64,000 nt of DNA from Citrobacter sp. MGH106 (GTDB lineage Bacteria; Pseudomonadota; Gammaproteobacteria; Enterobacterales; Enterobacteriaceae), in contig NZ_KQ089822.1 in assembly GCF_001037495.1 (NCBI RefSeq), positions 1,922,001-1,986,000 of the forward strand, given 5' to 3'. The notes beneath the pieces were generated by a model. That model ran no database searches and was not told where the DNA came from. It saw only the letters and a list, made by a program, of their open reading frames with translations. This document shows positions 6,225-32,763 of the stretch, piece after piece. The translations under genes were made by a program, and so were the position numbers. Position 1 is the stretch's first letter. The number at the start of each line of letters is the position of its first letter.

Positions 6225-6950
6225 CATTATTAGTAAAACCTCTCACTAAAGTTGAAAACCAGCAATGGAATGATCGAAGCTGCTGGTTGCGTATATTTAC
6301 ATTATGTATTGATTTTAAAGATAATTATTTTAAAGGCATTACGGTTGAGCTGCGGAGTCATTGTTATTTTATTAACATCATACTCTGGGGCTTGCTGTAG
6401 GATTATCGAAATGTTATTAGTTATTTCAGCATCTATTTTAGATGAATGTGCTAATTAATAACCAATTGTTAATTTTATGTACATTTTGACGTCAAGCAGA
6501 GACCGGACAGGGTTGTTTACTGCGAATTCGTCGTATCTGGTTGATTTTTTTGTTTTTATTGTAAGCCATCTCTTTTGTTGAGACTCTGTTTAGTGCGATT
6601 TATTTTCGATAAAAGAGAATTGGTTAACAAATCTGTAAAATGTATTGGCGGTTAAGAAACGCATTTGGTACTTTCCGGCCAGGTATTTTGCAGAAGATTT
6701 CACGTTGATGAGAATAATTTTCAATTAGTTTCTCACAGCAAAAGTAGTAGCGTGCTTCCGGCAGGGGAGGTACGTAGATAATCGACGCAAGGCGGTCGTA
6801 CGAATCGCCAGAATAAATAAAGTCGGTGATAGCGAGCAGTAAACAATAAACCACCTGACGGCAGAAAATCTCCGGTGCTGTACAGGAATCCTAACAGGAT
6901 TAACAGTCTGGTTATAAAACCAGCCATAATAATGAGGGAGTACAAACACA
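6225..6950 (+). other. Long AT-rich leader/regulatory region upstream of oppA
   Basis: About 725 bases with no supported gene; the small frames on either strand lack ribosome-binding sites. E. coli has a similarly long gap here. Close to oppA there are two small hairpins: AATCCT with AGGATT around 6889-6903, and CTGGTT with AACCAG at 6908-6923. The first lies just upstream of the second, within 65 bases of the start codon, so both are probably in the mRNA leader. The oppA operon is known to respond to Lrp and to the small RNA GcvB. Confidence 0.55.
6942..6950 (+). promoter_or_regulatory. CA-rich GcvB-type pairing site before oppA start
   Basis: ACAAACACA immediately precedes the oppA ATG and lies just after the GAGGGAG ribosome-binding site. 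It is complementary in character to the GU-rich R1 region of GcvB, which is known to repress oppA translation in E. coli and Salmonella. The gcvB gene itself is not in the window. Confidence 0.6.
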
Positions 6951-19245: not shown

Positions 19246-19884
19246 ATGAAAAAATTAACAGTTGCAGCATTGGCTTTAACAACTCTTCTCTCTGGAAACG
19301 CATTTGCGCATGAAGCCGGGGAGTTCTTTATTCGTGCAGGTTCTGCAACAGTAAGACCAACGGAAGGCGCGGGTGGTACGCTGGGAAGCTTAGGCGGCTT
19401 TGATGTCAGCAATAACACTCAGTTGGGACTGACATTCACCTATATGGCAACTGACAATATTGGTGTTGAATTGCTGGCAGCGACGCCGTTCCGTCATAAA
19501 ATCGGAACGGCAACAACGGGAGATATTGCAACCGTTCATCACTTACCGCCGACGTTAATGGCGCAGTGGTACTTTGGTGACTCCAGCAGCAAACTGCGTC
19601 CTTATGTTGGTGTCGGTGTTAACTACACCACTTTCTTCGACGAAGGATTTAATAATAACGGCAAAGAAACCGGATTATCGGACCTGAGCCTGAAAGACTC
19701 CTGGGGCGCAGCGGGGCAGGTGGGTATGGATTATCTGATCGATCGTGACTGGTTGATTAACATGTCTGTGTGGTACATGGATATCGATACCACCGCGAGC
19801 TATAAACTGGCTGGTGCTCAGCAGCATGACAGTGTGCGCCTCGATCCGTGGGTATTTATGTTCTCTGCGGGTTATCGTTTTTAA
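19246..19884 (+). CDS. ompW: Outer membrane protein OmpW
   Basis: 212 residues, the usual length. The signal peptide (1-21, cut after AFA) is followed by HEAGEFFIRAGSATV and an eight-stranded beta-barrel ending in the C-terminal Phe (SAGYRF) needed for outer-membrane assembly. OmpW has a narrow hydrophobic channel and is the colicin S4 receptor in E. coli. The last 29 bases overlap the frame of the integrase fossil on the other strand, so the accessory block begins exactly here. Confidence 0.97.
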   Translation: MKKLTVAALALTTLLSGNAFAHEAGEFFIRAGSATVRPTEGAGGTLGSLGGFDVSNNTQLGLTFTYMATDNIGVELLAATPFRHKIGTATTGDIATVHHLPPTLMAQWYFGDSSSKLRPYVGVGVNYTTFFDEGFNNNGKETGLSDLSLKDSWGAAGQVGMDYLIDRDWLINMSVWYMDIDTTASYKLAGAQQHDSVRLDPWVFMFSAGYRF

Positions 19885-20525
19885 GCTCTTCTGCAAAACT
19901 CCTCTGTAAAACTGGTCGTTTATCGGCCAGTTTTACCCACTCTTTCCCACGTGTATCGTTGTAATGTTCACGTATTGCTTTACTGCGATGACCTAACAAA
20001 ATTTGTATGTCGATCCCTTGCTCACTGGATATCCTTTCAGCCAAAGAACGTTGCTCATGGAAAGAACAAGGGCTCTGGTGGTAGAGTAAATACGGGCTAA
20101 GTATCCTGTCCCGGCACTGAGCGATCACATCCTCAAGAGAAATGTTGGACTTGTTACAGTGTCACTTTAAAGGTGTCGTGATTTTTGCACCTGTTTGCTT
20201 TGTTCAACGAAGAGGTGATTATCTCGGATATCTGAACATTTCATATTACAAAGATCGGCCAACCGCTGCCCTGTGATGATGGCCAGCAACATCCTTTGTC
20301 TGCAGGAAGTCATTATCTTTAGCGGTAAGTGGGGCGTTTTCCTGTTTAAGCGTTTCTCCGGTTTCGTAGATGTGGGTTCTTAAAGGAGATTATTGTCCGC
20401 ATGAAAGGATTTGCACCTCCACTGCCGATACCTCCATAACGGTGCGCTACCTCACCAGGGCTGATAAGTGCCAGGAGCGTCCGTCACTATCCTCACGCGA
20501 GTTTAGTGATAGGATGCGTCAGACT
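19856..20525 (-). pseudogene. Decayed phage-type tyrosine integrase
   Basis: Read on the minus strand, this stretch holds pieces of one integrase in successive frames. Upstream is YRTVMEVSAVEVQILSCG with THIYETGETLKQEN, resembling the core-binding part. Then comes MLLAIITGQRLADLCNMK with DIRDNHLFVEQSK (20292-20167), the first catalytic Arg region. Last is FHEQRSLAERISSEQGID with ILLGHRSKAIREHYND (20128-19856), holding the His-x-x-Arg box, the LLGH box and the nucleophile Tyr. The pieces are separated by stops and frameshifts, and about a third of the usual 330-400 codons is missing. The final frame runs into ompW, so the natural stop is gone. It is a prophage or island remnant and not functional. 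Confidence 0.85.
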
Positions 20526-20585
20526 AATAATTTATCCCTTGATGCCGATACCTTTATTTCTTAATCAATATATGAAGGAACATAT

Positions 20586-21998
20586 ATGTATTGTATTCGA
20601 CCTTTAGTGCGTCCACTTTGTTTTCTGGCGCTGTTGCCGTTTTCTCTCGTTCAGGCTACTGATAAACCTGCATTGATAGGTGGTGGTGTTAACCCCTTGT
20701 CTGTAACCAGAATTCACGATCGTGTGAATTATATGGTGTCGCTAAACTTCAATAACGGAAAAACGGCTCAGCAATGGCGTTCCGTTGATTGTAAACAGGG
20801 TAAGGCACAGCTTCTCTACAAGGATTTATTGAATGAGGAGGGATTTACCAAAGCTCGCTATTACGGCAACAGTTACCTCCGTTATGCTCCTGCTCAAGAT
20901 GATAAGCAAATGACGGAAGAGGATATACGCGCGGTTTGCCAGCTACCGATAAAAGATGCAATCTGGGAAAGATTATCTCCCACGGATACAGTCGGCATTA
21001 CCGAACTTGTCGATGTTAATAACATCCAGCGCATTGGTGATATTTTGTCGGTACGTATGGGGTATGACTTTGCTGATATCATCTGGGAACCGCCTTATGA
21101 TGCACCGTTGGAATTAAAGATTGAGCATTACTTATATAATTGTAAAACGCATCAAGGAGATGCTGTAGCGTTAATGAACTTCGACAGTGAGGGGCGCGTT
21201 ACGGACTCACTTATCACTGCTGATATTGTCCGTCGTAAGAGTGACTTCAAAATTAACACGCAAAAGGCACAACGCTTTGAGCAACTCTGCCAGTTACCCG
21301 CGGGGAAATCATTCAAAGCCGAAGGGCATTTTATACCCGCCGCTAACAAGCAAGCCTCAACATTGATGGGGCCATCAATGCCCGAACTGAGTAATAATAA
21401 TCCGCAGTGGCTGAATAAATTCCCTCTGTCTGCTGCTATTGAACACCAGACTCAGTCATTGATCAAACCATGGGCGATTCCTCGCTTTAAACAGATTCGT
21501 TATACCGAAGTTAGTGCGCTTGGCAAGACCAAAGTACAACTGGATGCACAACCGGATGGATATATACGCAAGCTGGAAGATTATGGTATCTGGACGGTGC
21601 AACGTTTAACTCTGGGTAATCAGCTACAGCTGAAGTTCACCATGTCTATTAGTAGTAGCACTACATTGCTTAACACATTGCAGACGGACCTGCGTTTCCC
21701 GTTAGTGGCTGGTCAACAATATCAGGCTCAATGGGACAGTATTGACTCCAATAAGAAAGTCACTGCATCAGCGCTACGTTGCGACGTAACGGAAGAGGGA
21801 GATGCACATAGCATTGCACCTGAGTTTAGTGGGAAATATCTATTAGTGGAGTGTCATGCAACTAATGAAGGGCAACCGGGAAGTCGTGACAAACTTGCCT
21901 GGCTGCAAGATCTCAACGTCTTCGTGCCGGTTACTCAGCAATTGGGAGATAAACCTGAAAATCCAGTGAAACTGGAAAATGTTAGTGTGATACGTTAA
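20586..21998 (+). CDS. Secreted protein of unknown function (470 residues)
   Basis: The ATG at 20586 follows GAAGGAACATAT, a good ribosome-binding site. The first about 24 residues form a signal peptide (basic, then RPLCFLALLPFSLVQA), so the product is periplasmic or exported. The rest has no membrane segment and no C-terminal beta-barrel signature; it contains five scattered Cys after the signal peptide. I recognise no domain. It lies between two integrase fossils, has its own terminator, and is convergent with a colicin-type immunity gene, but lacks any hydrophobic pore hairpin, so it is not itself a pore-forming colicin. Its base composition looks lower in G+C than nearby core genes. Confidence 0.75.
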   Translation: MYCIRPLVRPLCFLALLPFSLVQATDKPALIGGGVNPLSVTRIHDRVNYMVSLNFNNGKTAQQWRSVDCKQGKAQLLYKDLLNEEGFTKARYYGNSYLRYAPAQDDKQMTEEDIRAVCQLPIKDAIWERLSPTDTVGITELVDVNNIQRIGDILSVRMGYDFADIIWEPPYDAPLELKIEHYLYNCKTHQGDAVALMNFDSEGRVTDSLITADIVRRKSDFKINTQKAQRFEQLCQLPAGKSFKAEGHFIPAANKQASTLMGPSMPELSNNNPQWLNKFPLSAAIEHQTQSLIKPWAIPRFKQIRYTEVSALGKTKVQLDAQPDGYIRKLEDYGIWTVQRLTLGNQLQLKFTMSISSSTTLLNTLQTDLRFPLVAGQQYQAQWDSIDSNKKVTASALRCDVTEEGDAHSIAPEFSGKYLLVECHATNEGQPGSRDKLAWLQDLNVFVPVTQQLGDKPENPVKLENVSVIR

Positions 21999-22009
21999 TA
22001 ACCAAACGA

Positions 22010-22037
22010 GCTCACCGCTTTAGCCGGTGAGCCTTTT
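22010..22037 (+). terminator. Terminator after the 470-residue secreted protein
   Basis: An 8-bp stem (GCTCACCG 22010-22017 with CGGTGAGC 22025-22032) with a 7-base loop is followed by CTTTT, starting 12 bases past the stop codon. Confidence 0.85.
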
Positions 22038-22089
22038 ATGACCGGCTCCCCATTTGATTAAGAGACCGAGACATTTAAGCATTAAAATC

Positions 22090-22437
22090 TCATAATTTTG
22101 AAAGGGTTTTAACAGATTTCACAGCTAAAAATAATATGCAAACTGGAATTGTCAGGATAAAACAGAAAAATTCAAAAATAACGACTAAACTGCCACCTGT
22201 GGAGCTAGTGAAGAAGTCTCGTTGCCAGAATTCTTTTTTTGAAAACAAAAGGGCGGTTTTTTCAATAATATACTTTGAAAAAGGGAATAAAAACGAGTTA
22301 ATCAACACAGCGAGGAATAACTGATATGTCAACTCACTCTCGGGGTTGTTCATCCAGGAATAGAAAAATACACCAATTACTATTACGCTCCACACACTAT
22401 TTTTAAGATAGTATTTGAGTGTCATCCCTGATTCCAT
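22090..22437 (-). CDS. Orphan colicin E1-type immunity protein
   Basis: 115 residues with three or four hydrophobic segments. It resembles the colicin E1 immunity family (colicins E1, 5, 10, K): TLKYYLKN at the start, PFSKYIIEKTALLF in the centre, the basic loop FSKKEFWQRDFF, and CFILTIPVCILF near the end, in the same order and spacing as I recall for ImmE1 (113 residues). Such proteins sit in the inner membrane and block the pore-forming domain of their colicin. No colicin or lysis gene is in the window, so it is an orphan. The ATG at 22437 follows GGAGCGGAG; the ATG at 22425 is the start that aligns with ImmE1. It is AT-rich, typical of transferred DNA. A strong Fur-box match lies 71-89 bases upstream. 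Confidence 0.75.
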   Translation of the reverse strand: MESGMTLKYYLKNSVWSVIVIGVFFYSWMNNPESELTYQLFLAVLINSFLFPFSKYIIEKTALLFSKKEFWQRDFFTSSTGGSLVVIFEFFCFILTIPVCILFLAVKSVKTLSKL

Positions 22438-22507
22438 AAGGCTCCGCTCCTGTAGTTAACAACGTTCCATCCGCAAGCAGCATGCTAACAAGATCGAAGG
22501 GAAAATC

Positions 22508-22526
22508 AATAACGATAATCATTCTC
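22508..22526. promoter_or_regulatory. Strong Fur-box match
   Basis: The 19-mer beginning AATAACGATAATCATT matches the Fur consensus at 16 of 19 positions (counted by eye), much better than the tonB box in this window. The nearest intact gene is the immunity gene on the minus strand. On the plus side only fossil sequence follows before nikA. Confidence 0.7.
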
Positions 22527-22643
22527 AGTCGTGATGATGGTATCTCGCAGGGGCATTATTGATTGCGGACTTCTCACTTAACCCATACGACGATTTGGTT
22601 CTGATTTGTGATCTTGATGATAGCCAGGCGATATGAAGGCCTT

Positions 22644-22735
22644 TTACCGACCAGTTTTCTCTATTCTTTCCCACATGTCGCTGTCGTAGCCAGTCGCGAA
22701 TTTCCTGCTACTTCCCAACAAAATTTATTGATAAC
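22644..22735 (-). pseudogene. Second integrase C-terminal fossil
   Basis: On the minus strand the frame reads LLGSSRKFATGYDSDMWERI and then stops at 22644. This lines up with the LLGH...YxDDRGxEW end of tyrosine integrases. At DNA level it parallels the first fossil: CCAGTTTT, CTTTCCCAC and AACAAAATTT occur in the same order, with 68 bases from first to last motif at 19927-20004 and 66 at 22651-22726. It lacks the rest of the gene. Confidence 0.65.
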
Positions 22736-22757: not shown

Positions 22758-22806
22758 TTGATCCTGAACAATTAAAAAGTATGATGAATTACTAAAATCA
22801 TCATAC
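22758..22806 (+). promoter_or_regulatory. nik promoter: FNR box and perfect NikR operator
   Basis: TTGAT-CCTG-AACAA (22758-22771) is an FNR box with one mismatch. It is followed by GTATGA (22779-22784), 16 bases, TCATAC (22801-22806), an exact match to the E. coli NikR operator GTATGA-N16-TCATAC. The operator lies inside a perfect 14-bp inverted repeat (22774-22787 and 22798-22811). TAAAAT at 22793-22798 fits a -10 box. A start near 22806 would put the FNR centre at -41.5, a class II arrangement, with NikR blocking the -10. Confidence 0.88.
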
Positions 22807-22844
22807 TTTTTTAACTTACATCTATCGTCTTCGGGGGCACCATC

Positions 22845-24416
22845 TTGTCCAGACTAAACCGCACACTCATAGCGCTGCTGGCATGCGCGCCTTTTTTTGC
22901 ACAGGCAGCAGCCTCCGATGAAATCACCACTGCATGGCCGGTGAATGTGGGGCCGTTAAACCCACATCTTTATACACCTAACCAGATGTTTGCTCAGAGC
23001 ATGGTTTATGAGCCGTTGGTGAAATATCAGGCGGATGGTTCGGTAATTCCGTGGCTGGCAAAAAGCTGGAGTCACTCGGAAGACGGTAAAACCTGGACTT
23101 TCAACTTACGTGATGATGTTAAATTCTCTAACGGTGAAGAATTTGATGCTCAGGCCGCAGTGGAAAACTTCCGCGCAGTACTGGATAACCGTAAACGGCA
23201 TGCCTGGCTGGAGTTAACCAATCAAATCACGGATGTTAAAGCGTTAAGTAAAAATGAACTGCAAATCACACTGAAGGATGCGTACTATCCTTTCCTGCAA
23301 GAGTTGACCCTGCCGCGACCTTTCCGTTTTATTGCACCTTCTCAGTTTAAAAATAACGAAACCCTGAACGGAATTAAAGCGCCGGTTGGCACCGGGCCCT
23401 GGGTGCTGAAAGAATCGAAACTCAACCAGTATGATGTGCTGGTGCGCAATGAGCATTACTGGGGTGGAAAACCTCAAATTCAAAAGGTTACTGTCAAAGT
23501 GATCCCGGATCCAACCACACGGGCTGTCGCTTTTGAAACAGGTAATATCGATCTGTTATATGGAAATGAAGGGCTACTGCCTCTTGATACCTTCGCACGC
23601 TTCAGTCAGAACCCTGAATACAGAACGCAGCTTTCAGCACCTGTTGAAACCGTGATGCTGGCGCTCAACTCAGCAAAAGCACCAACTAATGAACTGGCTG
23701 TGCGTGAAGCATTAAATTATGCAGTTGATAAAAAAACGCTGATAAAAAATGCGTTGTACGGTACTCAGCAGGTAGCAGATACGCTGTTTGCGCCATCCGT
23801 CCCTTACGCCAATATCGGTTTGAAGCCGCGCGAATACGATCCACAGCACGCAAAATCTTTGCTGGAACAAGCTGGCTGGACTCTGCCCGCCGGAAAAACA
23901 ATTCGAGAAAAAGCCGGTCAACCGTTACATATCGAACTGGCCTATGTCGGTACCGATGCGCTCAGCAAATCAATGTCTGAGATTATGCAGGCAAATATGC
24001 GCCAGATTGGTGTGGATGTTGCTCTGGTCGGGGAAGAGGAGAGCAGTATATACGCCCGTCAGCGCGATGGTCGCTTTGGTATGATTTTCAATCGCACCTG
24101 GGGGGCGCCGTATGATCCACATGCTTTCATGAGTTCAATGCGTGTACCATCCCATGCTGACTACCAGGCCCAGCTTGGTCTTCCCGACAAAGCGCAAATC
24201 GACAAAGAGATTGGTGACGTGCTGATTTCCACAGATAAAACTCAGCGCCAGGAGCTGTATCGTGACATTCTGACCCGTTTGCATAATGAAGCGGTTTACT
24301 TACCAATCAGTTATATGTCGATGATGGTGGTCGCTAAACCTGGCCTGGGGGAGATCCCTTACGCACCGATTGCCTCGGAAATCCCGTTTGAACAGATAAA
24401 ACCGGTGAAACACTGA
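22845..24416 (+). CDS. nikA: Periplasmic nickel-binding protein NikA
   Basis: 523 residues, matching E. coli NikA (524). The TTG at 22845 is the only sensible start (no nearby in-frame ATG; GGGGG at 22833-22837). The signal peptide ends near residue 22 (FFAQAAA), followed by [19 protein letters not shown], a NikA signature not shared by OppA or DppA. It binds Ni(II) in a small chelator complex and passes it to NikBC. It is first of five tightly overlapping genes; its stop overlaps the nikB start by one base. Nickel supplies anaerobic NiFe hydrogenases and, in some relatives, urease. Confidence 0.96.
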
Positions 24417-25360
24417 TGCTGCGTTATGCTATACGGCGAATTCTGCTGCTGATTCCGATGATTTTCGCCGCGTCAGTGGTTATCTTTTTAATGTTGCGTT
24501 TGGGAACCGGCGACCCGGCACTTGATTACTTACGTTTATCTAACCTGCCCCCAACGCCTGATATGGTGGCTTCCACACGAGTCATGCTTGGGTTGGATCA
24601 ACCACTCATTGTGCAGTACGGTCGCTGGCTGTGGAAGGCCGTGCATCTGGATTTTGGTATCTCTTTTGCTACTCAGCGCCCGGTGCTGGATGATGTGATG
24701 CACTTTCTGCCTGCCACTTTACAGCTGGCGGGCGCTGCACTGGTACTGATCCTGCTAACTTCTGTACCGTTGGGAATTTGGGCTGCTCGTCATCGCGACC
24801 GCCTGCCAGATTTTGTTGTGCGGATAATCGCCTTTCTTGGTGTATCAATGCCCAACTTCTGGCTCGCTTTTCTGCTGGTCATGTTCTTCTCGGTTTATTT
24901 GAAGTGGCTGCCCGCGCTGGGCTACGGCGGCTGGCAGTACATCATTCTTCCTGCTGTGTCGATTGCTTTTATGTCGCTGGCGATTAATGCCCGCTTGCTG
25001 CGTGCAAGCATGCTAGAGGTTGCCGGGCAGCGTCATGTTACCTGGGCGCGTCTGCGCGGCCTGAACGAGAAGCAAATCGAACGCCGTCATATTCTGCGTA
25101 ATGCCTCGTTACCGATGATCACCGCTGTGGGAATGCACATTGGCGAATTGATTGGTGGAACGATGATTATTGAGAATATCTTTGCCTGGCCAGGCGTTGG
25201 ACGTTATGCCGTATCGGCAATTTTCAACCGTGATTATCCGGTGATCCAATGCTTTACGCTAATTATGGTGGTGGTATTTGTTGTTTGTAATCTGGTGGTT
25301 GATTTACTGAATGCCGCAGTAGATCCACGTATTCGCCGTCATGAAGGAGCGCATTCTTGA
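24416..25360 (+). CDS. nikB: Nickel ABC transporter permease NikB
   Basis: 314 residues, six membrane segments, N-terminal [16 protein letters not shown] typical of DppB-type permeases. The cytoplasmic EAA loop is [23 protein letters not shown]. It overlaps nikA by 1 base and nikC by 4 bases. It forms the nickel channel with NikC. Confidence 0.96.
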
Positions 25361-26190
25361 ACTTTTACCTCTCTTCACGCTGGTCGGTACGTCTGGCACT
25401 GATCGTTATTGTTTTGCTGGCTGTGATTGCGCTTACCAGCCAGTGGTGGTTACCCTATGATCCGCAGTCAATTGATTTACCATCGCGTCTGTTAGCCCCC
25501 GATAGCCAGCATTGGCTGGGGACTGATCATCTGGGGCGCGATATCTTCTCCCGCTTGCTGGCAGCAACCCGGGTGTCGCTCGGTTCGGTCATGGCCTGTT
25601 TAATTCTGGTACTGACATTGGGGCTGATCGTCGGAGGAAGCGCAGGATTGATTGGCGGCCGTGTCGATCAGGCCACAATGCGTGTCGCGGATATGTTTAT
25701 GACTTTTCCGACTTCAATCCTCTCTTTTTTCCTCGTCGGTGTGCTGGGTACAGGACTGACCAATGTCATTATAGCTATCGCTCTGTCGCATTGGGCATGG
25801 TATGCACGAATGGTACGTAGCCTGGTTATCTCCTTACGCCAACGTGAATTTGTGCTCGCTTCCCGACTTTCCGGCGCCGGTAATGTCAGAATATTTATCG
25901 ACCATCTGGCCGGAGCGGTGATCCCCTCATTGCTCGTCCTGGCAACTCTGGATATTGGTCATATGATGCTGCACGTGGCGGGAATGTCATTTCTTGGCCT
26001 CGGTGTGACCGCGCCAACTGCCGAATGGGGTGTCATGATCAACGACGCTCGCCAGTATATCTGGACTCAGCCGCTACAAATGTTCTGGCCAGGGTTGGCG
26101 CTGTTTATCAGCGTAATGGCCTTCAATCTGGTGGGGGATGCACTGCGTGATCATCTGGATCCCCATCTCGTCACGGAGCATGCCCACTGA
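25357..26190 (+). CDS. nikC: Nickel ABC transporter permease NikC
   Basis: 277 residues from TTG 25357, placed right after AAGGAG; the product begins [15 protein letters not shown] like E. coli NikC. DppC-type motif [14 protein letters not shown] near residue 55; EAA loop [23 protein letters not shown]. It overlaps nikB by 4 bases and nikD by 1, so translation of the operon is coupled throughout. Confidence 0.96.
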
Positions 26191-26954
26191 TGCCACAACA
26201 AATTGAGCTGCAAAATCTTGTTCTGCATGCAGAGAAACCGCTGGTCAACGGCGTGTCACTGTCGCTTAAACGCGGACGTGTACTGGCACTGGTAGGGGGA
26301 AGTGGAAGCGGAAAATCGCTAACCTGTGCCGCCGCGCTCGGCATTCTTCCGTCGGGTGTCCATCAAACTGCGGGAGCCGTTCTTGCAGATGGTAAACCGG
26401 TTTCCCCTGGCGATCTGCGTGGTGTAAAAGTTGCGACAATTATGCAGAACCCACGCAGCGCATTTAATCCGCTGCGAACCATGGCTGCACATGCGCGGGA
26501 AACCTGCATCGTGCTTGGGAAACCTGCAGATGATGCCACGCTTATCACGACTCTGGAGGCCGTGGGGTTAGAGGATGCCGCTCGTGTTCTCACTCTTTAT
26601 CCCTTTGAAATGAGTGGTGGTATGTTGCAACGCATGATGATTGCAATGGCGGTGCTGTGTGATGCGCCGTTTATTGTGGCAGATGAACCGACAACCGATC
26701 TGGACGTGGTCGCGCAAGCGCGCATTCTCGATTTGCTGGACAGCATTATGCAAACTCGTGCGCCAGGGATGCTGCTGGTGACCCATGATATGGGCGTAGT
26801 GGCGCGACTGGCCGACGAGGTGGCGGTAATGGATCATGGCAATATCGTTGAGTACGGCGACGTTCAAACTCTGTTTCGGACGCCTCAACATACCGTCACG
26901 CGTAATCTGGTTTCTGCACATCTTGCTTTGTACGGCATGGAGTTAGTCTTATGA
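26190..26954 (+). CDS. nikD: Nickel ABC transporter ATPase NikD
   Basis: 254 residues. Walker A GGSGSGKS near residue 36, signature MSGGMLQR, Walker [13 protein letters not shown]. One of two ATPases energising NikBC. It overlaps nikE by 4 bases. Confidence 0.96.
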
Positions 26955-27751
26955 CACTACTGACGGTCACGGGTATTTCACATCAGTATGCCCATGCGAA
27001 TTTGAGCGGCAGACACCAGCATCAGTCTGTATTAAAGGATGTTTCATTAACACTTAAAAGCGGTGAAACGGTTGCTTTGCTGGGGCGCAGTGGTTGTGGC
27101 AAAAGCACACTGGCACGTTTGCTTGTTGGTTTAGAATCTCCGACTCAGGGTTGCGTCAGTTGGCGGGGAGAGCCACTCACCCGGTTGAATCGGACAAAGC
27201 AAAAAGCATTTCGCCGGGATATTCAGATGGTATTTCAGGACTCCATTAGTGCCGTTAACCCACGTAAAACCGTACGTGATATTTTACGTGAACCCATGCG
27301 CCACCTGCTATCACTTAGTAAAACAGAACAACTCGCGCGTGCAAACGAAATGCTTAAAGCGGTTGATCTGGACGACAGCATACTCGACAAACGTCCGCCA
27401 CAGCTCAGCGGTGGTCAGCTACAGCGTGTCTGTCTCGCACGGGCATTGAGCGTTGAGCCTAAGCTATTAATTCTGGACGAAGCGGTGTCTAACCTTGATC
27501 TGGTGCTGCAAGCTGGCGTAATTCGCTTGCTCAAAAAACTGCAACAGCAGTTTGGCACTGCCTGCCTGTTTATTACCCATGATTTACGCCTTGTCGAACG
27601 TTTTTGCCACCGGGTGATGGTGATGGACGACGGGAGAATTGTTGAAACGCAAATCGTGGGTGAGACACTAACTTTCTCTTCTGATGCCGGACGAGTACTA
27701 CAGAATGCGGTACTCCCCGCATTCCCTGTGCGTCACACTCAGGCATCATAA
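26951..27751 (+). CDS. nikE: Nickel ABC transporter ATPase NikE
   Basis: 266 residues. Walker [10 protein letters not shown], signature [15 protein letters not shown], Walker [13 protein letters not shown]. It is the last nik gene here. In E. coli nikR follows nikE; in this window a MocR-type gene on the opposite strand follows instead, 31 bases away, and no nikR-like frame is found. No clear terminator is visible in the short gap. Confidence 0.96.
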
Positions 27752-27782
27752 GGTTTAAATTGGATGTTACGTACGCTCACGC

Positions 27783-29261
27783 TTAACTGCGGCATGTTTT
27801 GACGTTCCGCCCTTGTTTAATCAGGTCTGTAAGCATGCCGATCGCCGCCGGAATATCGTTACTGGAGGTATTTCCGTAGCCAATCACAAGACCAGAAACC
27901 GCGCCGGGCCTCGTACAGAATGATGACAAAGCCTGAACGCCCAGACCATGCTGGTGGGCTAATTCAGCGATCCTTTTGTCATCATCTCCCGCTGCCAGCT
28001 TCAGCGTCAGGTGCATTCCTGATTTACCCCCGAGAATCTGATCTGGTGAAAAGTCGGCTATCAGCGCCTCGCGTAAAATACGCTGGCGCTCGCGGTAGAG
28101 TCGTCGCATCCGCCCCAGATGTCGGCCAAACTCTCCACTTTTCATGAAATCAGCCATAGCCATCTGCTGCAATTGTTGGCCATTTCGGAGAATTTCATTC
28201 AATACCGTTTTTGCCTGTGCCATTACGCGCGCAGGAAGTACAAGGAATCCCAGCTTTAAGGAGGGAAACATCGTCTTACTGAACGAGCCGATGTAGAGTA
28301 CAGGCGTATGTGATACGAGTCCCTGCATGCTGGCTATCGGTCCGCCAGAGTGCCTGAAGTCGCCATCGTAGTCGTCTTCTATCAACCATGCTCCGGTGCG
28401 GCTGGCTTTTGAAATCAGCGCCAGTCGTCTGGCGACGGACATCACCGCCCCGGTGGGATATTGATGGGCAGGGGAGGTATAAATTAGCCTTGGTGTATGG
28501 GTCGTCCATGCATCCTTTGGTACGCGTATACCTTCTTCGTCCACCGCCATCAATACCGTATGCAAATTACCAGCAGAGAATGCTGCCTTTGCCCCACGAT
28601 AGCCGGGGTCTTCCATCCAGACTGTATCGCCAGGATCTGTCAGCAGCGTTACGCAAAGCTCCAGCGCCTGTTTTGCTCCCTCAGTCACGATTATCTGGGA
28701 AACATCGCAACGCACTCCGCGCGCAACATACAGATGCGTTGCTATCGCTTCTCGTAGAGTGCGTTCGCCTGCCGGTTCGCTATAGCCCAGCGAGTGGGAT
28801 TGCAACTGTCTGACCGCCCGGTCAAGGGAGCGTCGCCAGGCAGCCAGCGGAAATTCCCTGATTGCGGGCATGCCGGGAGATAACAGTGCATCGTGTACCG
28901 GTTGTAACGGGGTTTCCAGAATCGGTCTGAGGCGATCAGCCAGACGGACTGCGGGCGTGTCCGGCGATACCGGGGAGACGTTTTTGCGGTCGGCGCCTGA
29001 CAGGGATGCCACACGAGTGCCCTGGCGATCGGCCAGAATATACCCTTCTGCTGCCAGGTGTTCATAAACGTTCACAACGGTATTTCGCGATACACCGAGC
29101 TCTTTTGCCAGCGTTCGGGATGATATCAGGCTCGAGCCCGCCGGCAGGTGGCCACTCAGAATCGCCTGCTGAATACGCTCTGTAAGCTGTTTTTGCAGAG
29201 ATAGCGGTTCACCGCCTGGGGAGATTGCCCCCGGCGTCAGAGGGGCGGTGATATCAAACAT
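27783..29261 (-). CDS. MocR/PdxR-type regulator (GntR HTH fused to aminotransferase domain)
   Basis: 492 residues from ATG 29261; a TTG at 29279 would add six. The N-terminal winged helix-turn-helix of the GntR family is seen as SSRTLAKELGVSRNTVVNVYEHLAAEGY (about 45-75). The rest is a fold-type I aminotransferase domain with EDPGYRGAK, the EDDYDGDFR cofactor Asp, and the PLP Lys in GSFSKTMFPSLKLGF. Such proteins bind DNA and sense PLP or an amino compound. It is divergent from an acetyltransferase gene, its likely target. The effector is unknown; PdxR-type control of vitamin B6 synthesis is possible, but no pdx gene is nearby. Confidence 0.88.
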   Translation of the reverse strand: MFDITAPLTPGAISPGGEPLSLQKQLTERIQQAILSGHLPAGSSLISSRTLAKELGVSRNTVVNVYEHLAAEGYILADRQGTRVASLSGADRKNVSPVSPDTPAVRLADRLRPILETPLQPVHDALLSPGMPAIREFPLAAWRRSLDRAVRQLQSHSLGYSEPAGERTLREAIATHLYVARGVRCDVSQIIVTEGAKQALELCVTLLTDPGDTVWMEDPGYRGAKAAFSAGNLHTVLMAVDEEGIRVPKDAWTTHTPRLIYTSPAHQYPTGAVMSVARRLALISKASRTGAWLIEDDYDGDFRHSGGPIASMQGLVSHTPVLYIGSFSKTMFPSLKLGFLVLPARVMAQAKTVLNEILRNGQQLQQMAMADFMKSGEFGRHLGRMRRLYRERQRILREALIADFSPDQILGGKSGMHLTLKLAAGDDDKRIAELAHQHGLGVQALSSFCTRPGAVSGLVIGYGNTSSNDIPAAIGMLTDLIKQGRNVKTCRS

Positions 29262-29370
29262 ATGTCGTGGACCTATCAAAAACTAAAACCGTGGCTCTTT
29301 TCAGGATACCACAATTATTTCATCCTCTGACTCTGTTAATGATCCCGTCTCAAAGGAGCTGATCGTCACC

Positions 29371-30108
29371 ATGACTAATATAATGAATCGCTTTAACCAG
29401 CCTGTCGGCGCCGAACTCTCTGGCTGGAGTGGCGCGAAACTTCCCGGTGAAAAATCACTGGAAGGTCGCTATTGTCGGCTTGAACGCATCAGCGCTGAAC
29501 GTCATGCAGCTGATCTTTATGAGGCATACTGCGAAGCGCCGGATGAGCGCGACTGGACCTATCTGCCGTCAGGACCTTTCGAGAGTGAAGTATCCTACCG
29601 CACCAGTCTGCTGAGTGCCAAAACGTTGCGCGATCCGCTGCATTACGCTGTGATTGATAAGGCCAGCGGCAAGCCGTCTGGTACGGTTGCACTTATGCGG
29701 ATTGATCCCGCTAACGGGGTCATTGAGGTCGGCTATGTGACCTATTCGCCGCGCATGAAGCGTACGCGTATATCTACGGAGGTTATGGCGCTGCTGCTTC
29801 GCTATGTTTTTGAGGAGCTCCGTTATCGCCGGCTGGAATGGAAGTGCGACTCACTCAATGCTCCGTCCCGAGCGGCGGCAGAACGCTTCGGCTTCCGATT
29901 TGAAGGCATTTTCCGCCAGGCCGTTGTGTACCGCGGGCGCAACCGTGACACCGCCTGGTATTCAATCATTGACGGTGAGTATCCTGCGTTGCGCATCGCC
30001 TACGAAAAATGGTTAGCGGCAGATAACTTCGATGATGATGGTAATCAACAGGAAAAACTCGGTAACTTGATTGCAAAAATGCGACAGGATGAACCGCAAT
30101 ATCGTTAA
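29371..30108 (+). CDS. RimJ/RimL-family GNAT acetyltransferase
   Basis: 245 residues. The ATG at 29371 follows AAGGAG. The N-terminal part has GRYCRLERISAERHAADLYEA; the acetyl-CoA-binding region is around TRISTEVMALLLRYVFEELRYRRLEWKCDSLN with SRAAAERFGFRFEG, the hallmark of RimL/RimJ-type acetyltransferases. The acceptor is unknown. Divergent pairing with the MocR regulator (109 bases between starts) suggests the two form a regulated unit. Confidence 0.85.
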   Translation: MTNIMNRFNQPVGAELSGWSGAKLPGEKSLEGRYCRLERISAERHAADLYEAYCEAPDERDWTYLPSGPFESEVSYRTSLLSAKTLRDPLHYAVIDKASGKPSGTVALMRIDPANGVIEVGYVTYSPRMKRTRISTEVMALLLRYVFEELRYRRLEWKCDSLNAPSRAAAERFGFRFEGIFRQAVVYRGRNRDTAWYSIIDGEYPALRIAYEKWLAADNFDDDGNQQEKLGNLIAKMRQDEPQYR

Positions 30109-30145
30109 GCCTGCAGCAGGCAAAATCAGCATGGACATCCCTTTC

Positions 30146-30186
30146 TTGATCTGTTTTCCATAAAATACTACTGTATATAAATACAG
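30146..30186 (+). promoter_or_regulatory. LexA box and promoter of umuDC
   Basis: CTGTATATAAATACAG (30171-30186) is a perfect CTG-N10-CAG LexA operator with an AT-rich centre, 21 bases before the umuD start. TTGATC at 30146-30151 is a candidate -35. The arrangement resembles the E. coli umuDC promoter. Confidence 0.9.
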
Positions 30187-30207
30187 TTATTGTGAAGGCA
30201 GATCATC

Positions 30208-30627
30208 ATGTTGTTTTTCCAGCCTGCGGAACTCCGCGAAATCAAAAGCTTCCCGCTATTCAGTGACCATGTGCCCTGCGGATTCCCCTCGCCAGCTCAG
30301 GACTATGTTGAGAAGCGTATTGACCTGAATGAGTTGTTAGTGCGTCACCCCAGCGCAACGTATTTTGTAAAATCTTCCGGGGATTCCATGATTGGGGCAG
30401 GGATCAGTAATGGTGATTTGCTGGTCGTCGACAGTTCCAGAAAAGCAGTTCATGGCGATATTGTTATTGCTGCTATCGATGGTGAATTCACGGTTAAACG
30501 TCTGCAACTTCACCCGACAGTTATGCTTAAACCGGAGAACAGCGCCTACGCTCCCATTCTGCTGGGTAGCGAGGAGACGCTGGATGTCTTTGGTGTGGTG
30601 ACGTTTATCGTAAAAGCGACTGTCTAA
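30208..30627 (+). CDS. umuD: UmuD, SOS mutagenesis protein and self-cleaving polymerase V subunit
   Basis: 139 residues, the E. coli length. The RecA-stimulated cleavage site Cys24-Gly25 (VPCGFPSP) is intact. The Ser of the Ser-Lys dyad is in SSGDSMIG (about 60) and the Lys in FTVKRLQ (about 97). After DNA damage UmuD cleaves itself to UmuD', which joins UmuC as DNA polymerase V. It sits directly under a LexA box and two bases ahead of umuC. In E. coli this pair lies elsewhere on the chromosome. Confidence 0.96.
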
Positions 30628-30629
30628 TC

Positions 30630-31898
30630 ATGTTTGCACTGGTTGATGTGAACGCGTTTTATGCCAGGTGTGAGACGGCATTCCGGCCAGATTTGAAGGG
30701 AAGGCCGGTTGTCGTTCTGTCAAACAACGATGGCTGTGTTATAGCCCGAAGTCCTGAAGCAAAAGCCGTTGGGGTAAAAATGGGCGATCCATATTTCAAA
30801 CAAAAGGATTTGTTTCGCCGCTGCGGAGTAGTGTGTTTTAGCAGTAATTATGAACTCTACGCGGATATGAGTCTCCGGGTGATGTCCACACTGGAAGAGT
30901 TGTCCCCCCGCGTGGAGATGTACAGTATAGATGAGGCGTTCTGCGATCTGACGGGCGTAAGGAATTGTCGTGATCTGACCGACTTCGGCAGGGAAATCTG
31001 TGCAACGATACAACAGCGCACTCACCTCGCTGTCGGGGTCGGCATTGCCCAGACCAAAACGTTGGCCAAGCTGGCTAACCATGCGGCAAAAAAGTGGCCG
31101 CGGCAGACGGGCGGTGTTGTGGACTTATCGAATCTTGAGCGACAGCGCAAACTCATGGCTGCATTGCCTGTCGATGAAGTCTGGGGGGTGGGGCGCCGTA
31201 TCAGCAAAAAACTGGACAGCATGGGGATTAAAACGGTTCTGGATCTGGCTGATACCGACATCCGTTTTATTCGCAAGCATTTCACTGTCGTACTCGAAAG
31301 AACGGTACGTGAATTGCGTGCTGAACCTTGTCTGGCGCTGGAAGAATTTGCACCGGCTAAACAGGAAATAGTCTGTTCCCGGTCGTTTGGTGAATGGATC
31401 ACCGGATATGAGGCTATGCGTCAGGCTATCTGCAGCTATGCGTCGCGAGCTGCGGAAAAACTGCGTAGCGAACATCAATATTGCCGGTTCATATCCGTTT
31501 TCGTTAAAACCTCGCCATTTGCGCTGAATGAACCGTTTTACAGTAACAGTGCATCGGTGAAGCTGCTTACTCCAACTCAGGACAGCAGGGATATCATTGC
31601 TGCAGCGATACGAAGCCTGGATGCCATATGGAAAACTGGATATCGCTATCAGAAAGCGGGAGTCATGCTGGGTGATTTTTACAGCCAGGGCGTGGCCCAG
31701 CTCAATTTGTTTGATGATAACGCACCGCGTGCAGGCAGTGAAAAATTGATGGAGGTACTGGATCTCCTGAATGCTAAAGAGGGCAGAGGGACGTTGTATT
31801 TCGCCGGGCAGGGGATCCAGCAACAGTGGCAGATGAAGCGAGAAATGCTCTCTCCTCGTTATACCACCAGATACGCAGATCTTCTTCGAGTCCGCTAG
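30630..31898 (+). CDS. umuC: UmuC, catalytic subunit of error-prone DNA polymerase V
   Basis: 422 residues, full length. Y-family polymerase motifs: FALVDVNAFYARCE at the start with the first catalytic Asp, and YSIDEAFCDL (about 99-108) with the catalytic Asp-Glu pair. The C-terminal clamp-binding motif is QLNLFDD (about 356). It performs translesion synthesis with UmuD'2 under SOS control and is co-transcribed with umuD. Confidence 0.96.
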   Translation: MFALVDVNAFYARCETAFRPDLKGRPVVVLSNNDGCVIARSPEAKAVGVKMGDPYFKQKDLFRRCGVVCFSSNYELYADMSLRVMSTLEELSPRVEMYSIDEAFCDLTGVRNCRDLTDFGREICATIQQRTHLAVGVGIAQTKTLAKLANHAAKKWPRQTGGVVDLSNLERQRKLMAALPVDEVWGVGRRISKKLDSMGIKTVLDLADTDIRFIRKHFTVVLERTVRELRAEPCLALEEFAPAKQEIVCSRSFGEWITGYEAMRQAICSYASRAAEKLRSEHQYCRFISVFVKTSPFALNEPFYSNSASVKLLTPTQDSRDIIAAAIRSLDAIWKTGYRYQKAGVMLGDFYSQGVAQLNLFDDNAPRAGSEKLMEVLDLLNAKEGRGTLYFAGQGIQQQWQMKREMLSPRYTTRYADLLRVR

Positions 31899-31976
31899 AC
31901 TTATGAAGCCAGGAAAGTCCGGTGATTCACACCCAGACAGCTACGCTTATAGAGGTATCAAATATCGGGAGGGGTT

Positions 31977-32189
31977 ATGCTAACTCACTCTGAAGCAAAA
32001 CGATGGGCCACCTTAATGCTCAAGGCAGCATTATGTGATGGTATGAAGCACGACGAAATTTCCCGACAGGTGCATCTTGTCTGTGATCATCATGGAAAGG
32101 AGTGCCTTGAAGAACTCATAGAGGAAATTCTGATAGAGGCAGGTCGAATAGGACCTAAACATAGCAATGGACAACTGAGACATCATTGA
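31977..32189 (+). CDS. Small protein of unknown function downstream of umuC
   Basis: 70 residues. The ATG at 31977 follows GGGAGGGG with good spacing, supporting translation. The sequence is helical and charged, with an EELIEEILIEAGR stretch and a His-rich end; a Cys-His-containing segment (VCDHHGKEC) is in the middle. I recognise no family. It starts 78 bases after umuC and could share the SOS transcript. Confidence 0.55.
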   Translation: MLTHSEAKRWATLMLKAALCDGMKHDEISRQVHLVCDHHGKECLEELIEEILIEAGRIGPKHSNGQLRHH

Positions 32190-32763
32190 GTCTCAACTTC
32201 CGCTGCTTCCCTCTCAAAGCGTTTAATTTAGGGGGGAACCAAAGCAAGGGGAAATCGGCGCGGTATTGACAGAGGATGCACCCATTCTGGTCCCTGATTT
32301 TCTGTATTGCCAACGACTTATGTCACGAGGGTAATGCGAATTGGCCAGCCAGTGCCGCGCCATCATTACTGGCACTTCCGTCTCCTTTTTTTTATGTTCT
32401 GTACTTCTCATCCGGCCTTTTCCCCTTCAATGTAATGCTACTCTTTAAGCAAATTTATCGCCTGAAACAAATTCTCGCTGCAGCGCCAGCCCTGTCTATG
32501 AAATCGAAACTGGTTATGTTGCGGGCGTAAGCGATTGTCGGGCGGCCTGTCCGATCGCTGGTGATAGCTAACTTGTGATTTTTGTTAACAAAAAATGTGC
32601 TTTTTTTAAATAAATCTGTAACTTTATCTCTCGGAGACGGTGTGACTTCACCTTATCATCAGTAACAGAATAATTGACATCTTTGACAAGCACTCAGGGC
32701 TGTTATGCAACAATATAAGCGGGTAATTGGTTTGGTCATACTGTTAACTATCAGGGTGGGTTC
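32190..32763. other. Non-coding stretch between the small gene and the diguanylate cyclase
   Basis: 574 bases. The one longer frame (32276-32530) has no ribosome-binding site and looks spurious. The right half is AT-rich and probably regulatory: a 16-bp perfect palindrome TTTTTGTTAACAAAAA at 32579-32594, and two overlapping TTGACA-like -35 candidates around 32672-32690. In E. coli and Salmonella the yciGFE genes lie in this interval; none is seen here. Confidence 0.5.

Follow-up and report, generated by a model that had tools for sequence, protein, structure and literature searches.

A chromosomal orphan colicin immunity gene beside ompW in Citrobacter, probably left by a decayed prophage colicin module

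Introduction

Orphan immunity genes, that is immunity genes without a toxin, are already known on E. coli plasmids: one survey, which counted 243 plasmids with such genes, states that it is not known whether loss of the toxin or gain of the immunity is their source (PMC12546727). Orphan immunity genes have also been described in Pseudomonas (PMC5358913). Among paired systems, colicin Ib is regulated by LexA and Fur and its receptor CirA by Fur, and the Ia/Ib immunity acts in the inner membrane (PMC3879352), while colicins of the Ib/FY group are reported to enter via TonB (PMC4675545, PMC3858286).

Here we describe an immunity gene of Citrobacter sp. MGH106 that is a chromosomal, divergent representative of this known class; the prophage route proposed for it is the newer part. 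The gene lies in a stretch of 64,000 nucleotides that was analysed as a whole (the window). It shares with the E. coli plasmid orphans the state of an immunity without a toxin and the same question of toxin loss or immunity gain, but those are plasmid-borne and more than 99% identical to known immunities. PMC12546727 defines an orphan by that degree of identity to a toxin-paired immunity together with a missing toxin; the window gene lacks the toxin but its best paired relative is 76% identical, which makes it an orphan in a looser sense only. CfyI, the colicin FY immunity of Yersinia frederiksenii pYF27601, is 47.7% identical to the window protein and convergent with its colicin, but it is plasmid-borne and paired, and no Fur-like box was found at its gene. 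The colicin Ib immunity (Imm) is 40.7% identical, has a Fur-like box upstream and falls into the same clade (99/93), but sits on a conjugative plasmid and is paired with its colicin. Closest are immunities from prophages, one in a genome of the same genus (G012) and three on IMG/VR contigs (L057, L058 and L059), which have the same length and about 76% identity, with a Fur-like box in G012, L057 and L058 and, in G012, the same ompW site. Unlike the window gene, they adjoin a colicin gene and phage genes, as seen in G012 and L057, the phage status of L058 and L059 being the IMG/VR label.

Results and Discussion

An immunity gene without its colicin

The gene is an open reading frame with an ATG start that encodes 115 residues (Table 1). 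E1-type immunity proteins have about 110–115 residues and three membrane spans, and the hydropathy of the window protein peaks at residues 11–29 (1.25), 40–58 (1.79) and 84–102 (2.76), the first below the usual 1.6. A Pfam search bore out the colicin E1 immunity family named in the initial annotation: the protein scored 38.4 bits with PF03526 (“Colicin E1 (microcin) immunity protein”; cut-off 25, E = 1.1e-9), whereas the Colicin-K immunity model PF17500 reached 15.7, below its cut-off of 27. The PHROGs phage-protein family phrog_22982, which has no assigned function, also matches (43.3 bits). Two NCBIfam matches were both far under cut-off, and the best hit among PDB sequences (E = 0.7) was unrelated.

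The window protein has a single match in its own genome (E ≤ 0.001), on a contig of 4.2 Mb with yciB, yciC and ompW as neighbours. The pore-forming colicin domain PF01024 is absent from this genome at E ≤ 1, and the flanks of the gene hold no adjacent convergent pore-forming colicin gene, so the window has no complete colicin module. These results confirm an orphan colicin immunity gene in the chromosome, as first proposed. The gene was also said to lie on the strand opposite its neighbour, and it is indeed convergent with the gene to its left; that neighbour encodes a 470-residue protein and not a colicin. A part in defence, as first suggested, is plausible. Small membrane proteins are in general known to be reused, and with no colicin domain left the product might no longer be an immunity protein and instead serve as a membrane protein in another use, for example anti-phage defence; the 76% identity to paired immunities and the lack of a PADLOC match at E ≤ 0.1 make this very improbable.

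Table 1. Features of the ompW site in the window, with strand and supporting evidence.
Feature	Position	Strand	Evidence
ompW, conserved edge of the variable site	19246-19884	+	PF03922; present in 17/17 genomes of the genus, own included
Decayed lambda-type integrase adjoining the ompW 3' end, in collinear, internally deleted pieces	19927-20353	-	Alignment to the G012 prophage integrase
Cassette of the 470-aa gene plus terminator, where relatives have the colicin gene	20540-22034 (gene 20586-21998)	+	81% DNA identity to a Pantoea agglomerans plasmid, flanks included
Homology to the prophage colicin–immunity intergenic region	22070-22089		Colicin's final codon and stop still alignable
Putative E1-type (Ib/FY-like) orphan colicin immunity gene	22090-22437	-	PF03526 38.4 bits; 76% to two prophage immunities
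Upstream region homologous to prophage immunity upstream	22438-22527	-	Homology stops at 22527
Fur-box-like element	22513-22527	-	12/14 consensus positions, ~90 bp upstream of the start
Further fragment resembling the integrase 3' end, far side of the immunity gene	22649-22726	-	59/80 identical

Relationship to the colicin Ib and FY immunities

Relatives of the window protein at E ≤ 0.01 were found by tblastn in 2,044 plasmid records, each below 60% identity; beyond CfyI and the Ib immunity, the Ia immunity stands at about 31% and the E1 immunity at about 28%. A tree was built from 34 rows (the window protein, four prophage immunities, six plasmid or phage rows and 23 other genome loci), leaving out L005 with an internal stop, L086, which shares genome and score with L069, L059 with its interrupted frame, and L001/L002, second entries for the window and G012 genes. 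The window protein and three prophage immunities form a clade (99/99), to which the next fork adds the colicin Ib immunity and a fourth prophage immunity, giving the six-row clade mentioned above; CfyI joins at a weaker fork (95/76), and the E1 immunity is placed elsewhere. On this sequence comparison the window protein groups with the immunities to colicin Ib and, less firmly, FY, and not with those to E1 or K, the two members of the E1/5/10/K set that were compared. The E1/5/10/K layout proposed at first therefore stands as to family; its E1/K label does not, since the K model stays below cut-off and the E1 immunity lies outside the clade.

The colicin of the G012 prophage is 42% identical to colicin FY over its full length and 61% identical to colicin Ib over the last 209 residues. 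Because of the grouping of the immunity and this likeness of the prophage colicin, the expected target class would be the Ib/FY group in place of the E1/5/10/K class predicted initially. The product would then be an inner-membrane E1-type immunity protein near the colicin Ib group which, judged by its family, blocks the pore-forming domain of an incoming colicin.

Paired relatives in prophages

Five of 119 genomes, the own genome included, had a match to the window protein, among them G012 at 76% protein identity. In G012 the immunity gene is convergent with a gene for a 424-residue protein carrying PF01024 (176.5 bits), and the pair is surrounded by the genes of a lambdoid prophage, namely an integrase (PF09003 and PF00589), a CII-like activator, replication proteins, RusA, a holin and an endolysin. 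Three IMG/VR contigs hold close copies of the colicin–immunity pair, with immunities 76–78% identical to the window protein, and a fourth is more distant; gene neighbourhoods of the pair were listed for L057 and L060 only. The colicin frame is open over 424 residues in L057, L058 and L060 and covers only 339 of the 424 in L059, where the immunity frame is interrupted as well. One further IMG/VR match (L095, 44%) lies near a contig end. LexA-like boxes were found upstream of the three prophage colicins examined.

In L060 (IMG/VR contig 3300011456, 9293-9640) a gene that by eye resembles a CI-type repressor is immediately followed, in the same direction, by the immunity gene; given this position, the immunity gene might be expressed in the lysogen.

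A variable site beside ompW

Leaving aside the own genome and G012, all 15 other genomes of the genus have, within about 0.3–3 kb after ompW, the sequence that the window shows from position 32478 on, which makes the stretch in between a variable site. The immunity genes of the window and of G012 share their orientation and are 2.2 kb and about 10 kb, respectively, away from ompW. Next to ompW, the first integrase piece matches the G012 prophage integrase at 123 of 139 aligned bases, and the other pieces at 86% over 20076-20320 and 29/33 over 20321-20353. The fragment on the far side of the immunity gene gave an alignment score of 54, and none of 1000 resampled sequences scored above 30; here, as in the Fur-box comparison, the null sequences were first-order resamples and not exact shuffles. 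Around the immunity gene itself, blastn aligned 22088-22527 at 78% to L032, L057 and L059 and 22073-22527 at 75% to L058, and of the colicin end only about two codons are retained. Besides the integrase pieces and the immunity module, blastn and alignment to the prophage relatives recognised no phage gene between 20354 and 22772.

We consider it likely that a prophage colicin module at ompW decayed here, that the toxin was lost down to about its last codon, and that an immunity gene, possibly iron-regulated, stayed. Most likely, a temperate phage with a colicin and immunity module inserted beside ompW. Decay of this one prophage, from which the remnants would all descend, would then have left the integrase in pieces and the colicin gone to about its last codon, with foreign cassettes filling the site. 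The immunity gene would have outlasted it, together with the upstream region that contains the Fur-box-like element.

In one E. coli genome, too, genes for an integrase and an excisionase lie at ompW. A tRNA gene as insertion site was considered and rejected, the window holding none.

Six Pantoea plasmid records contain the 470-residue gene at about 80% identity, and the 16 other genomes of the genus lack it. It was rejected as a colicin: no Pfam model scored above cut-off (there was only a weak Adhesin_E stretch), PF01024 is absent from the genome, and by eye its start resembles a signal peptide. An immunity partner for it in Pantoea was likewise rejected, as the convergent 117-residue protein there, judged by eye, does not resemble an immunity protein. 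About 100 bp at 20375-20479 resemble a stretch in G012 (L062); part of them also resembles sequence without annotation on four Salmonella plasmid records. The remainder of the variable site (22773-32453) holds a nickel-uptake operon, with nikA in 2 of 17 genomes of the genus, and by eye a umuDC-like pair, which is found at ompW in G013 too.

Upstream element and constraint on the gene

The Fur-box-like element upstream of the gene was found with a Fur consensus pattern, and the LexA-like boxes with a LexA one. None of 200 resampled copies of the 200-bp upstream region scores as well, and equally good sites elsewhere in the window lie at 6709 and 51365/51368. The element is identical, at −90, upstream of three prophage immunity genes, and Fur-like boxes precede the Ib/Ia immunities at −70/−80. 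In the motif scan, in which match ends instead of verified start codons defined some of the starts among L067–L087, the box was missing from several relatives, including cfyI, the E1 immunity and the L060 prophage immunity. The sequence thus suggests that the window immunity is possibly iron-regulated via Fur. If the element works, the protein would be made in iron starvation, when the receptors of such colicins are also made. The gene may still protect its host today.

Against the G012 immunity gene, the window gene has a dN/dS of 0.13. Among codons common to two prophage genes but altered in the window gene, 23 changes are synonymous and 13 are not, while random single changes would be about 22% synonymous. 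As read from these codons, the changes show constraint on the lineage of the window gene, which cannot be dated to before or after the loss of the colicin and may predate it. The dS between window and G012 is 0.99 for the immunity gene, higher than for yciC (0.47) and ompW (0.63), which points to related phages using one site rather than a single ancestral insertion.

A rather unlikely alternative is that the gene is a neutral leftover of a lost colicin module, still open but without use and heading for decay. The broken integrase and the absence of any colicin domain would fit this, as would other states of decay among the 27 loci compared below, with the colicin domain shortened in L067 and L082, split in L076 and frameshifted in L005, and, outside that set, the viral contig L059 with both frames interrupted. 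The window gene is nonetheless open, its codon changes are mostly synonymous, and despite the rotted integrase adjoining it the Fur-like element matches that of the prophage genes exactly, all of which speak against this reading.

Orphan immunity genes more widely

A search of the family gave matches in 23 of 392 genomes (own included) at 26 places, which with G012 make 27 loci. No colicin domain lies within 1.5 kb at 10 of these, and four more, L005, L067, L076 and L082, have the damaged domains named above. Orphans are therefore frequent here, in agreement with what PMC12546727 reports for plasmids. Nine other orphan-bearing genomes were searched for PF01024 at E ≤ 0.001: four (G149, G250, G258 and G347) have none, and in five it occurs elsewhere. 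One scan of genome contigs found no relatives; a second found three loci, two in Enterobacter sp. BIGb0383 and one in Arsenophonus.

Mobile elements do carry immunity genes without an adjacent colicin, as in Klebsiella phage pJN2-26, where one lies near an integrase. The pJN2-26 gene and four genome copies form a clade (100/98) without an adjoining colicin at any of its five members, although a colicin domain occurs elsewhere in two of these four genomes, and PMC12546727 argues for immunity gain on plasmids. The window gene could similarly have arrived alone, as phage or plasmid cargo without a colicin, and been selected for protection. We hold this unlikely, since bases aligning with the colicin stop region persist past the immunity stop and the close prophage relatives have the colicin gene.

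Loss of the toxin from a prophage module thus remains our preferred reading, and a paired prophage copy and an orphan copy at one chromosomal site in one genus make the toxin-loss route testable.

The pJN2-26 gene (L066, 5001-5357) is of E1 type and is annotated as hypothetical.

Prophages as carriers of pore-forming colicins

The pairs described here indicate prophages as carriers of pore-forming colicins. Pseudomonas prophages are reported to carry bacteriocin genes, one of them colicin M-like (PMC2647930), and our search of the open-licence literature turned up no description of a pore-forming colicin gene on an enterobacterial prophage. Plasmid-borne colicin Ib, which comes without a lysis gene, is reported to be released by temperate phage lysis (PMC7374059); a colicin linked on the phage itself would neatly solve release for a class without a lysis gene. 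We give an even chance to the general proposal that temperate phages carry Ib/FY-type colicin and immunity modules with LexA- and Fur-like sites, that phage lysis genes could release the colicin, and that prophage decay leaves an iron-regulated immunity. If true, prophage decay would be a route to chromosomal colicin immunity independent of plasmids.

Among phage records, Klebsiella phage 48ST307, which has a protelomerase gene, encodes a 377-residue “hypothetical protein” (L107, 3123-4256) with PF01024 at 30.8 bits against a cut-off of 23.4, and the prophage colicin has matches as good as that to 48ST307 in three further Klebsiella phage records.
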